Shown piece after piece: positions 1 through 4,650 of a stretch of DNA of 11,798 nucleotides. The stretch covers positions 1 to 11,798 of the forward strand of contig JAJQCU010000009.1 of NCBI GenBank assembly GCA_021202575.1, in the 5' to 3' direction. The translations under genes and the position numbers were made by a program. The notes under the pieces were generated by a model, which saw only the letters and a program-made list of their open reading frames with translations, had not been told where the DNA came from and searched no databases. Source of the DNA: Lachnospiraceae bacterium (GTDB lineage Bacteria; Bacillota; Clostridia; Lachnospirales; Lachnospiraceae). How positions within the stretch are numbered: position 1 is the stretch's first letter; the number at the start of each line of letters is the position of its first letter.

Positions 1-251
1 AAAAAATCATCGAAACAGTCAACAAGAACGGATCTCAGGTCAGCGGCCGCGGCCCTCTTCCTACCAAAAAGGAGGTTGTGACCATCCTCAGGGCGGTTCA
101 CAAGTACAAGGACTCCAGAGAGCAGTTTGAGCAGAGAACCCACAAGAGACTGATCGATGTCAATGCCCCGAACCAGAAGACCATGGATGCCCTGCAGAGA
201 ATGGAACTTCCGGCCGGTGTCAATATTGTTATCAAAATGGTCACAAAGTAA
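1..251 (+). CDS. rpsJ: 30S ribosomal protein S10 (3' part)
   Basis: This is the C-terminal part of S10, a protein of the 30S head that in many bacteria also acts as the transcription antitermination factor NusE. The reading frame starts at base 3 and gives 82 residues up to TAA. About 23 N-terminal residues lie outside the window, judging from the usual length of about 102. Recognisable S10 segments are [20 protein letters not shown], then [14 protein letters not shown] and the terminal [15 protein letters not shown]10 is normally the first gene of its operon, so the promoter and any leader regulation lie upstream and cannot be seen. It is followed by a 63-base spacer and rplC. Identification is secure. 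Confidence 0.97.
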
Positions 252-261
252 TTACAAAACC

Positions 262-301
262 TTCTACTAGAATGAATGGCCGGTTCCATTCCGCTGTAGA
301 A
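262..301 (+). promoter_or_regulatory. two-part stem-loop just before the rplC ribosome binding site
   Basis: The spacer between rpsJ and rplC can fold. TTCTAC (262–267) pairs with GTAGAA (296–301), and inside it GAATGG (274–279) pairs with CCATTC (286–291) around a CCGGTT loop. The unpaired bulges are 268–273 and 292–295. The outer stem ends just before the AAGGAGG at 304–310. There is no U-run after it, so it is not a standard terminator. It could affect rplC translation, mRNA processing or stability. Function is inferred only from position and pairing. Confidence 0.4.
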
Positions 302-314
302 AAAAGGAGGAAAA

Positions 315-998
315 ATGAAAAAAGGCATTTTAGCAACAAAAATCGGCATGACCCAGATTTTTGCCGAAGACGGCTCCCTCATTCCCGTAACCGTGCTTCA
401 GGCGGGCCCCTGCTACGTCACCCAGGTCAAGACTGTGGAGAAGGACGGTTATTCCGCGGTACAGCTTGGCTTTGTTGACAAGAAGGAAAAGCAGAATATC
501 AAGGACAGAAGCGGCAAGAAGGAAGTAGTTCACAGACACGGAGTGAACAAGCCGCTGCAGGGACATTTCGCGAAAGCGGGCGTAACATCCAAGAGATATG
601 TCAGAGAGTTTAAGTTTGTGAACGCTGAGGATTATGCCCTGGGCGCGGAGATCAAAGCGGATATCTTCGCGGTGGGTGATCACATAGACGCGACTGCCAT
701 CAGCAAGGGCAAGGGCTTCCAGGGCGCCATCAAGAGACATGGCCAGCACAGAGGCCCCATGGCTCACGGCTCCAAGTTCCACCGCCATCAGGGCTCCAAT
801 GGCTCCGCCACCACGCCGGGCCGCGTGTTCAAGGGCAAGGGAATGCCCGGACACATGGGCTGCGTGACGGTGACCGTGCAGAACCTGACCGTAGTGAGAG
901 TAGACGCAGAACAGAACCTGCTGCTGGTGAAGGGCTCCGTTCCCGGTCCCAAGAAGGGTCTGGTCAAGATCAAAGAGACCGTCAAGGTCGAGGCTTAA
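315..998 (+). CDS. rplC: 50S ribosomal protein L3
   Basis: L3 is a 23S rRNA-binding protein that starts 50S assembly; its long finger reaches towards the peptidyl-transferase centre. The product is 227 residues. The N-terminal [18 protein letters not shown] and the central [15 protein letters not shown], followed by [11 protein letters not shown] and [13 protein letters not shown], are typical L3 and form the barrel and the finger. The start is ATG at 315, four bases after AAGGAGG at 304–310. The protein is longer than the ~209 residues of Bacillus L3. The extra residues fall around 60–77, between the KEK and NKP segments, in a lysine-rich stretch, so they look like a lineage insertion in a surface loop. 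A Cys follows GHMG (residue 174 or so) where many homologues have Gly or Lys. It ends with TAA, 23 bases before rplD. Confidence 0.98.
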
Positions 999-1021
999 TC
1001 GGTTGAAAGGAGGACATTCAG

Positions 1022-1642
1022 ATGGCAAACGTATCTGTTTATAATATGGAAGGCGAACAGGTCGGCACACTGGAGTTAAATGACGCAGTGTTCGGCGTAC
1101 CTGTTAATGAGCACCTGGTACACCTGTCTGTAGTGCAGTATCTTGCTGACAACCGTCAGGGCACGCAGAAGGCAAAGACCCGCTCCGAGGTCAGCGGCGG
1201 CGGCAGGAAGCCGTGGAGGCAGAAGGGAACCGGCCACGCGAGACAGGGTTCCACCCGGGCGCCCCAGTGGAAGGGCGGCGGAGTTGTGTTCGCGCCTGTT
1301 CCCAGGAATTACAGCTTCAAGATGAACAAGAAGGAAAAGAGAGCGGCTCTGAAAAGCGCTCTGAGCGATGCGGTGGCAAGCGGAAAGCTGATTGTGGTCG
1401 ACGAGCTGAAGTTTGATGAGATTAAGACAAAGGCCTTTGTGAAGGTCATGAATAATTTAAAGGTGGAGAAGGGCCTGGTTGTGCTGGATGAGAATGATCC
1501 GAAGGTAGTCATGAGCGCGAGAAACGTGGCCGGTATCCAGACGACTCTGACGAACAGCCTGTGCACCTATGACATTGTGAAGGCGAAGAAGGTTGTCCTG
1601 ACAAAGGGAGCTGTGGCAAAAATTGAGGAGGTATTCGCATAA
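1022..1642 (+). CDS. rplD: 50S ribosomal protein L4
   Basis: L4 binds 23S rRNA, and its long loop lines the peptide exit tunnel next to L22. In enterobacteria it also represses its own operon; whether it does so here cannot be told, because the leader is outside the window. The product is 206 residues, the normal length. The tunnel loop, about residues 45–92, is clear: [20 protein letters not shown] followed by [18 protein letters not shown]. This region is where macrolide resistance changes occur in other species; the conserved [11 protein letters not shown] core is intact. The ribosome binding site AAAGGAGG (1006–1013) is well placed for ATG 1022. The TAA stop shares its last base with the ATG of rplW. 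Confidence 0.98.
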
Positions 1643-1941
1643 TGGCCAATATTCAGTATTATGACGTTATCCTCAAACCGGTAGTGACTGAGAAGTCCAT
1701 AAACGGCATGAGCGAGAAAAAATACACGTTTTACGTACACCCGGAAGCAAATAAGATTATGATCAAGGAGGCTGTCGAGAAGATGTTCGACGGCGTCAAG
1801 GTCAAAAAGGTCAATACCATGAACTGCCTCGGCAAGAATAAGAGAAGAGGCATGGTGACAGGCAAAACCTCTGCGAAGAAGAAGGCGATTGTCTGGCTGA
1901 CTGAGGACAGCAAGGACATCGAGATCTTTGCGGGTCTGTAA
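1642..1941 (+). CDS. rplW: 50S ribosomal protein L23
   Basis: L23 sits at the exit of the peptide tunnel, where it docks trigger factor and the signal recognition particle. The product is 99 residues, close to the usual 95–100. The signature [12 protein letters not shown] is at residues 8–19; its Glu17 corresponds to the glutamate used for trigger factor binding in E. coli. A basic KNKRRG loop lies near residue 65, and the protein ends in the usual strand (KAIVWLTE). The start overlaps the rplD stop by one base (TAATG). Its ribosome binding site GAGGAGGT (1625–1632) lies inside the rplD coding sequence, which suggests translational coupling. Confidence 0.98.
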
Positions 1942-1961
1942 ATCGAAAGGAGAATGATAAC

Positions 1962-2804
1962 ATGGGAATCAAGACATATAACCCATATACCCCTTCCAGG
2001 AGAAATATGACCGGCTCTGATTTCGCGGAGATCACAAAAAAGACTCCTGAGAAGTCCCTTACCAGAGCGGTGAAGAAGAATTCCGGCCGCAACAACCAGG
2101 GGAAGATTACAGTAAGGCACCGCGGCGGCGGCGAGAAGAGAAGATACAGGATCATCGATTTCAAGAGAAATAAGGACGGCATTCCGGCAAAGGTCATCGG
2201 CATTGAGTACGATCCCAACAGAAGTGCCAACATCGCCCTGATCTGCTACGCGGACGGCGAGAAGGCCTATATCCTGGCGCCGAAGGGACTGACCGACGGC
2301 ATGAAGGTGATGAATGGCCCGGAGGCTGAGGCCCGTATCGGCAACTGCCTGCCGCTTGCCAATATTCCGATTGGTACCCAGATTCACAATATTGAGCTGT
2401 ACCCCGGCAAGGGCGGACAGCTGGCCCGCTCCGCGGGCAACAGCGCTCAGCTGATGGCCAAGGAAGGCAAGTACGCCACCTTAAGGCTTCCCTCCGGAGA
2501 GATGAGAATGGTGCCGTTAAACTGCAGAGCCACCATCGGCGAGGTCGGCAACGGCGACCACAATCTGATCAAGATCGGAAGCGCCGGGCGCAAGCGCCAC
2601 ATGGGTATCCGCCCCACGGTCCGCGGTTCTGTTATGAACCCGAACGATCACCCGCACGGCGGCGGCGAGGGCAGAGCACCCGTCGGACGTCCGGGACCGA
2701 GTACCCCCTGGGGCAAACCGGCTCTCGGCTTAAAGACCCGCAAAAAGAAGAAGCAGTCCAACAAGCTGATCGTGAGACGCCGCGACGGCAGGGCGATCAA
2801 GTAA
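1962..2804 (+). CDS. rplB: 50S ribosomal protein L2
   Basis: L2 is a highly conserved 50S protein needed for subunit joining and peptidyl-transferase activity. The product is 280 residues (usual 273–280). An OB-fold N-terminal half includes [19 protein letters not shown] at about 51–69, and an SH3-like C-terminal half contains [14 protein letters not shown] at about 225–238. His230 in that motif corresponds to the E. coli His229 reported as important for activity. The basic tail ([19 protein letters not shown]) is intact. ATG 1962 follows AAAGGAG (1946–1952) at normal spacing. It is 20 bases after rplW and 18 before rpsS. Nothing is missing. Confidence 0.99.
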
Positions 2805-2822
2805 TTCAGGAGGAAGATAAAA

Positions 2823-3104
2823 ATGGCAAGATCATTGAAAAAAGGACCATTCGCAGACGCGAGCCTGCTGAAAAAGGTGGATGCGCTGAACGCGTCCGGT
2901 CAGAAGCAGGTTATCAAGACCTGGTCCCGCCGCTCTACAATTTTCCCGTCCTTTGTTGGGCATACCTTCGCGGTTCACAATGGAAAGCAGCATATTCCGG
3001 TATATGTCACCGAGGATATGGTTGGCCATAAGCTGGGAGAGTTCGTGGCGACCAGAACGTTCAGAGGACATGGCAAGGACGAGAAAAAGTCCAAGGTAAG
3101 ATAA
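2823..3104 (+). CDS. rpsS: 30S ribosomal protein S19
   Basis: S19 lies in the 30S head, binds 16S rRNA together with S13, and approaches the A-site tRNA. The product is 93 residues, the standard length. Family landmarks are [12 protein letters not shown] at the N-terminus, [20 protein letters not shown] in the middle and [18 protein letters not shown] near the C-terminus. AGGAGG at 2808–2813 serves ATG 2823. It lies 38 bases before rplV; that spacer can form only a weak 4-bp hairpin (TCCC/GGGA). Confidence 0.98.
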
Positions 3105-3142
3105 GACGGCGTCCCAGAAGGGATTGAAAGGAGGCTATATCT

Positions 3143-3532
3143 ATGGCAAAAGGACATAGATCTCAGATTAAGAGAGAGAGAAACGCTCAGAAAAAAGATA
3201 CCAGACCTTCGGCTAAGCTGTCTTACGCCAGAGTGTCTGTTCAGAAAGCATGCTTTGTGCTTGACGCAATCAGAGGCAAGGATGTGGATACCGCACTGGC
3301 CATCCTTTCCTACAGCCCCAGATATGCGGCCAGCATTACCAAAAAATTACTGGAATCGGCAATCGCGAACGCTGAGACCAACAACGGATTAAACCGTGAC
3401 AATCTTTATGTCGCAGAGTGCTACGCAGGTCAGGCGGCAATCATGAAGCGCATCAGACCCCGCGCACAGGGCAGAGCGTACAGGATTGAGAAGAGAACGA
3501 GCCACATTACTATCATTCTCGATGAAAGATAG
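3143..3532 (+). CDS. rplV: 50S ribosomal protein L22
   Basis: L22 contacts all domains of 23S rRNA, and its beta-hairpin lines the exit tunnel opposite L4. The product is 129 residues, longer than the ~113 of Bacillus. The additional residues form a basic N-terminal extension (MAKGHRSQIKRERNAQKKDT) before the conserved domain starting near PSAKLSYARVS (22–32). The ATG at 3143 is supported by AAAGGAGG at 3127–3134, eight bases upstream, so the extension appears real; I recall similar extensions in Lachnospiraceae L22. The tunnel hairpin (about 91–112, MKRIRPRAQGRA) and the terminal HITIIL are intact. The stop is TAG, unlike the common TAA. Confidence 0.98.
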   Translation: MAKGHRSQIKRERNAQKKDTRPSAKLSYARVSVQKACFVLDAIRGKDVDTALAILSYSPRYAASITKKLLESAIANAETNNGLNRDNLYVAECYAGQAAIMKRIRPRAQGRAYRIEKRTSHITIILDER

Positions 3533-3553
3533 GACTGTTGAAAGGAGAATCAA

Positions 3554-4210
3554 ATGGGACAGAAAGTTAATCCTCATGGCCTGAGAGTAGGTATCATAAA
3601 AGATTGGGATTCCAGGTGGTATGCTGATAAAAAGTTCCCTGAATATTTAAAGGAAGACTATGAGATCAGGAAGTTCCTGAAGAAGAAGTTATACAGCGCG
3701 GGCGTATCCTAAATCGAGATAGAGAGAGCGGCCGAGAGAGTAAAGGTTACTCTTTATACAGCGAAACCGGGCGTTGTCATCGGCAAGGGCGGCGCGGAGA
3801 TCGAGGTTACCAGGCAGGAGCTTGGCAAGCTGACCGGCAAGAAGGTTCTGATTGACATCAAGGAGATCAAGAGGCCTGACAAGGACGCGCAGCTGGTGGC
3901 GGAGAATATTGCGCAGCAGCTGGAAAACCGTGTGTCCTACAGGCGTGCCATGAAGTCCTGCATGAGCAGAACCATGAAGTCCGGCGCACTTGGCATTAAG
4001 TGCTCCGCCTCCGGACGTCTGGGCGGCGCGGACATCGCGCGCAGAGAGTTCTACAGCGAGGGCACCATTCCGCTTCAGACTCTGAGAGCGGATATTGATT
4101 ACGGCTTTGCGGAGGCGGATACCACCTACGGCAAGGTCGGTGTGAAGGTATGGATTTACAAGGGCGAAATACTGCCGGAAAAAGGAAACAGGGAAGGGAG
4201 CGATAAGTAA
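3554..4210 (+). pseudogene. rpsC: 30S ribosomal protein S3 gene interrupted by an in-frame TAA at codon 53
   Basis: S3 sits at the mRNA entry tunnel of the 30S subunit and takes part in unwinding mRNA; it is essential. ATG 3554 is preceded by AAAGGAG (3541–3547), and the frame runs 219 codons to TAA 4208–4210, the normal S3 length. The N-terminus [18 protein letters not shown], the KH motif VIGKGG (75–80), the RRAMK helicase-type residues (130–134) and [18 protein letters not shown] (153–170) are all classic S3. However, bases 3710–3712 are TAA, between GVS and IEIERAA. Homologues have Lys or Arg here (GVSKIEIER type), so AAA to TAA, one A-to-T change at 3710, is the simplest cause. The frame is otherwise undamaged, with no indel. 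As written it yields a 52-residue fragment; the next in-frame start is GTG 3896 with no ribosome binding site. A sequencing or assembly error is the likeliest explanation. Confidence 0.93.
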
Positions 4211-4212
4211 TT

Positions 4213-4650
4213 ATGTTAATGCCAAAAAGAGTGAAACATCGTAAACAATTCCGCGGTTCCATGCACGGCAGAGCGACCAGAGGCAACACAATCACCTACG
4301 GCGATTACGGCCTGGTGGCGGTGGAGCCCTGCTGGATCAAGGCCAATCAGATTGAGGCTGCCCGTGTAGCGGCAACCCGTTATATGAAGCGTGCGGGAAA
4401 GGTCTGGATCAAGATTTTCCCTGACAAGCCGGTAACAGCCACGCCCGCTGAGACCCGTATGGGTAAAGGTAAGGGCAGCGTGGAGTACTGGGTAGCGGTG
4501 GTCAAGCCGGACCGCGTACTGTTCGAGGTCGGCGGCGTACCGGAGGAGACGGCAAAGGAGGCCATGCGTCTGGCGATGCACAAGCTCCCCTGCAAGTGCA
4601 AGATCGTTTCCAAGGCGGATCTGGAAGGCGGTGTATCAAATGAAGAGTAA
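4213..4650 (+). CDS. rplP: 50S ribosomal protein L16
   Basis: L16 helps position the A-site tRNA and completes late 50S assembly. The product is 145 residues, a little longer than the usual ~137–144 because of an acidic tail (EGGVSNEE). Family features are the start [15 protein letters not shown], then [20 protein letters not shown] (about 49–68), the RMGKGKG loop (82–88) and [20 protein letters not shown] 4213 lies only two bases after the rpsC stop; its best ribosome binding site, GGGAG at 4196–4200, is inside rpsC and rather far, so coupling to S3 translation is plausible. If so, the stop inside rpsC would also reduce L16 translation. The second ATG at 4219 is a less likely start, since homologues begin ML(M/L)PKR. 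Confidence 0.97.

Follow-up and report, generated by a model that had tools for sequence, protein, structure and literature searches.

The window, which is the entire 11,798-nucleotide stretch of DNA analysed here, corresponds to one complete contig (C371) from a draft genome that totals 2,481,547 bases over 427 contigs and is 84% complete. The named records closest to the S3 protein of its relative belong to Lachnospiraceae. It carries a ribosomal protein operon that runs from a cut rpsJ gene through to a cut map gene; besides rpsC, S10 and L3, the gene names in the window were assigned by reading the proteins. The rpsC gene, encoding ribosomal protein S3, begins with an ATG at 3554 and ends with a TAA at 4208-4210, and in the same frame it contains a TAA at codon 53 (3710-3712, + strand). 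The gene is laid out as 52 codons for the N-terminal part of S3 (3554-3709, + strand), the TAA, and a further 165 codons together with the normal TAA stop (3713-4210, + strand), which is the arrangement given in a preliminary description of this sequence. As that description also noted, rplP starts two bases past the end of rpsC, at 4213.

Both halves of rpsC match the bacterial S3 profile TIGR01009 in register, with the first half covering positions 1-53 (65 bits) and the second half covering positions 55-210 (225.8 bits) out of 212; the profile's cut-off of 114.5 bits is passed by the second half and not by the first. In comparison with bacterial rpsC genes for the 30S protein S3, the gene has the expected profile match on either side of the stop and the expected neighbors, rplV and rplP, but its reading frame is interrupted by the TAA. 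Chance does not account for an S3 remainder of 165 codons that stays in frame. Moreover, the portion of rpsC downstream of the stop has no amino-acid changes that are unique to the window when compared to its congeners, which argues that the gene is not decaying.

Eight other genomes from the genus were searched using the rpsC DNA, yielding matches in five; the three genomes where a match was absent are 56, 83 and 75% complete. In all five congeners with a match, rpsC has no internal stops and codon 53 encodes either Lys (four genomes) or Arg (one genome), so that the close relatives carry the intact gene that is expected if the stop were a sequence error. The nearest relative (G003) is 98.8% identical across the whole window and 85.4-96.4% identical to the draft elsewhere, according to 13 alignments spanning 36.6 kb of other contigs (only alignments with at least 800 columns and at least 85% identity were kept). 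Its codon at this position is one base away from TAA, in keeping with the preliminary proposal that a one-base change explains the stop. Across 114 fetched loci, which include at least seven genomes that were fetched twice, codon 53 encodes K in 95, R in 12, T in 3, N in 2, D in 1 and H in 1. One further stop sign appears among these loci (L135), located at the extreme C-terminus of the alignment. The S3 chain within a solved ribosome (PDB 3j9w), which we take to be the B. subtilis structure, reads VSKVEIERA here, placing a Lys at the codon-53 position; the preliminary description had quoted the same letters for Bacillus.

The survey was extended to 397 genomes from the family, where rpsC was matched in 351 and gave no match in 46. 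A sequence pattern for the codon-53 stop had matches in nine of the 397 genomes, and it falls within rpsC solely in the present genome. The other eight matches are at chance level, because no S3 was found within the surrounding 3 kb and because a backward control pattern also had matches (6 genomes by count). The corresponding pattern for codon 57 had one match across the 397 genomes, outside of rpsC. It was run because short S3 clusters (described below) had suggested that S3 might be naturally and repeatedly truncated around codons 53-57, a reading that the pattern does not support. Both patterns fix the neighboring codons, so that S3 genes with different wording escape them; stops elsewhere in rpsC were counted among the best rows, with re-inspection of 11 genomes picked for their odd rows.

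The base changes that are unique to the window, or unique to G003, were identified by comparing both sequences with the other four congeners, one of which (G001) spans only the bases from 3050 onwards. The window has 59 unique bases, including 45 synonymous changes (32 transitions and 13 transversions), 13 non-synonymous changes (6 transitions and 7 transversions) and 1 intergenic change. The 50 bases unique to G003 are divided into 30 transitions and 10 transversions that are synonymous, 8 transitions and 0 transversions that are non-synonymous, and 2 intergenic changes; three sites are present in both lists. Non-synonymous transversions therefore make up 7 of 59 unique bases in the window versus 0 of 50 in G003 (Fisher p = 0.015, a test picked post hoc). 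All seven of them, including the stop, are located at bases 23 to 3710 of 11798, and four are found within the first 163 bases. In particular, the cut rpsJ gene at the contig end (S10; 3-251, + strand) has four amino-acid changes and zero silent changes with respect to G003, all four of them unique (bases 23, 49, 52 and 163); at three of the four sites, the base is identical across the three other relatives that cover them. The S10 profile score is 85.2 bits in the window versus 92.1 bits in G003. Two other unique non-synonymous transversions lie in rplC (619, + strand) and rplV (3308, + strand), and a unique synonymous transversion is found 4 bases 5′ of the stop (3706, + strand). Unique transversions are paired within 5 bases at 49/52 and at 3706/3710 (p = 0.010, also chosen post hoc). 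A stricter outgroup rule, which leaves out 85 sites, gives non-synonymous to synonymous ratios of 12:19 for the window and 8:14 for G003, without a difference between them. These tests on the unique changes are statistically modest and were selected after the data had been seen. Within rplV, there is also an in-frame AAA (3194-3196) that is missing in all five congeners compared.

Irregularities were also observed on other contigs of the draft, at places aligned with the stretches fetched from G003. One is another in-frame stop, a TAG inside a 398-codon frame on contig C369 (L155), which has a 15-base gap and a cluster of mismatches against G003 close to it; the other is on contig C316, where ten N stand in for 24 bases of one frame. 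Letters besides ACGT are found in 9 of 19 unmasked contigs sampled from the draft. Frame breaks outside the window are no more frequent in the draft than in its relative: a stop interrupts 1 of 30 open frames each way, and frameshifting gaps affect 7 of 30 open frames in the draft and 9 of 30 in G003. These counts therefore do not demonstrate that errors are unusually frequent in the draft beyond the window.

We infer that the base at 3710 is wrong and that the TAA is very probably an error in the draft sequence, arising from a base call, a thin consensus or a local assembly fault, as judged from sequence comparison. The preliminary description had made a base-call or assembly error its first choice, and that choice is favored by the open genes of the congeners, the odd unique changes and the intact remainder of S3. 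The odd changes are in excess within the same third of the contig as the stop. Further, a random substitution in the window's coding DNA creates a stop in 3.8% of cases, and one stop among a few errors in the contig is therefore unremarkable. In living cells, codon 53 of rpsC would most likely encode Lys, full-length S3 would be produced, and translation would be ordinary. There is precedent in M. smegmatis, where sequencing errors were behind 28 of 73 interrupted genes, as shown by resequencing (PMC1852416). Both cases have a conserved gene that is broken once in a deposited genome and is intact in relatives; however, the M. smegmatis errors were proved by resequencing and mass spectrometry, whereas the present case relies on sequence comparisons with an incomplete draft. 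A literature search that combined premature stops, assembly errors and metagenome drafts found no paper.

The alternatives to a draft error accept the TAA as real. Stop-codon recoding and nonsense suppression resemble the present case in that a conserved gene has an in-frame stop with its sequence continuing beyond it, and the intact frame and S3 sequence past codon 53 would be compatible with a TAA that a suppressor tRNA or a programmed event allows to be read as an amino acid. We consider this highly improbable. TAA is a common terminator here, closing 17 of the 23 gene ends counted in the window (rpsC's own end included), and the preliminary count stands, giving no support to a recoded genetic code; two genes in the draft contain release-factor domains (frames of 380 and 381 codons). 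A check of the tRNA genes, as the preliminary description had proposed, found no stop-reading anticodon among the 20 identified in the 84% complete draft. The RNA 3′ of the stop folds no better than its shuffled versions (z = -0.11), which does not support a role for RNA structure there. Ribosomal frameshifting does not rejoin the S3 frame either: a +1 shift at the stop runs into a TAG at 3720-3722 and the -1 frame bears no relation to S3. The preliminary description was right about both outcomes, although it had placed the TAG at 3719. Least credible of all is the production of S3 as two chains, the second one by a restart past the stop. One family genome (G075) has an insertion after approximately residue 48 of S3, suggesting that the chain tolerates changes nearby, but the region past the stop has no in-frame ATG, GTG or TTG before the GTG at 3896, about 61 codons downstream, and a restart there would lose nearly all of the KH match (3662-3880).

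Two further readings also take the TAA as present in DNA. An intact second rpsC could lie within the missing part of the genome, given that the draft is 84% complete; it is very unlikely, because the draft has a single S3_C match, its other KH_2 match sits in a separate frame of 302 amino acids, and the interrupted rpsC itself has kept its protein sequence past the stop. The search for such a copy, also suggested in the preliminary description, found none in the draft. Since the genome is incomplete, a missing tRNA or a missing second rpsC is weak evidence. Somewhat less improbable, yet still unlikely, is a true nonsense allele that existed in a fraction of the population sampled (cells that were dying or had the operon duplicated) and entered the consensus. 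A fragmented draft of 427 contigs may mix strains; however, the loss of S3 should be lethal and the majority normally sets the consensus. S3 is essential in both E. coli and B. subtilis. In addition, rpsC is listed among the core genes kept in Mollicutes (PMC4014445).

A genuine stop would make a core ribosomal protein reliant on readthrough, a very surprising situation. There is only a very slight chance that the cells truly have TAA at codon 53, with the supply of S3, and perhaps of the downstream L16, depending on suppressor-driven or regulated readthrough. Under the favored explanation of a draft error, the case cautions that an isolated stop in a fragmented draft has to be checked against the reads or a sister assembly, and comparing the types of unique changes against a near relative provides a cheap check where reads are missing.

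When the first 52 residues of S3 served as a protein query, the matches included short clusters that end close to the same position. Among the best 120 of 1681 matches, these clusters are exactly 56 or 54 amino acids long and all come from the source 'ena'; the 56-residue clusters comprise P0121 (77 contigs), P0130 (66), P0207 (31), P0202 (7), P0137 (2) and P0182 (1), and the 54-residue clusters comprise P0171 (26) and P0221 (1). P0121, P0130, P0207, P0171 and P0202 are S3 pieces from metagenome contigs of several lineages that end in ...SKI or ...KIEI. The 56 residues of P0121 open at least seven full-length S3 proteins among the matches listed; for the other seven short clusters, no full-length S3 with the same beginning was found among those matches. 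Our guess is that the short clusters are contig ends.

Other unusual S3 genes were observed across the family. The insertion in G075 (L179:1501-2541) is charged and about 75-80 residues long; the protein is otherwise S3-like, with KH and S3_C domains, and its genome is 99% complete in 20 contigs. In two family genomes, rpsC is cut by a contig end (L180 in G289 and L181 in G312). In a draft with 410 contigs (G024, L177), rpsC has an in-frame TAG at approximately residue 202, near its C-terminal end.
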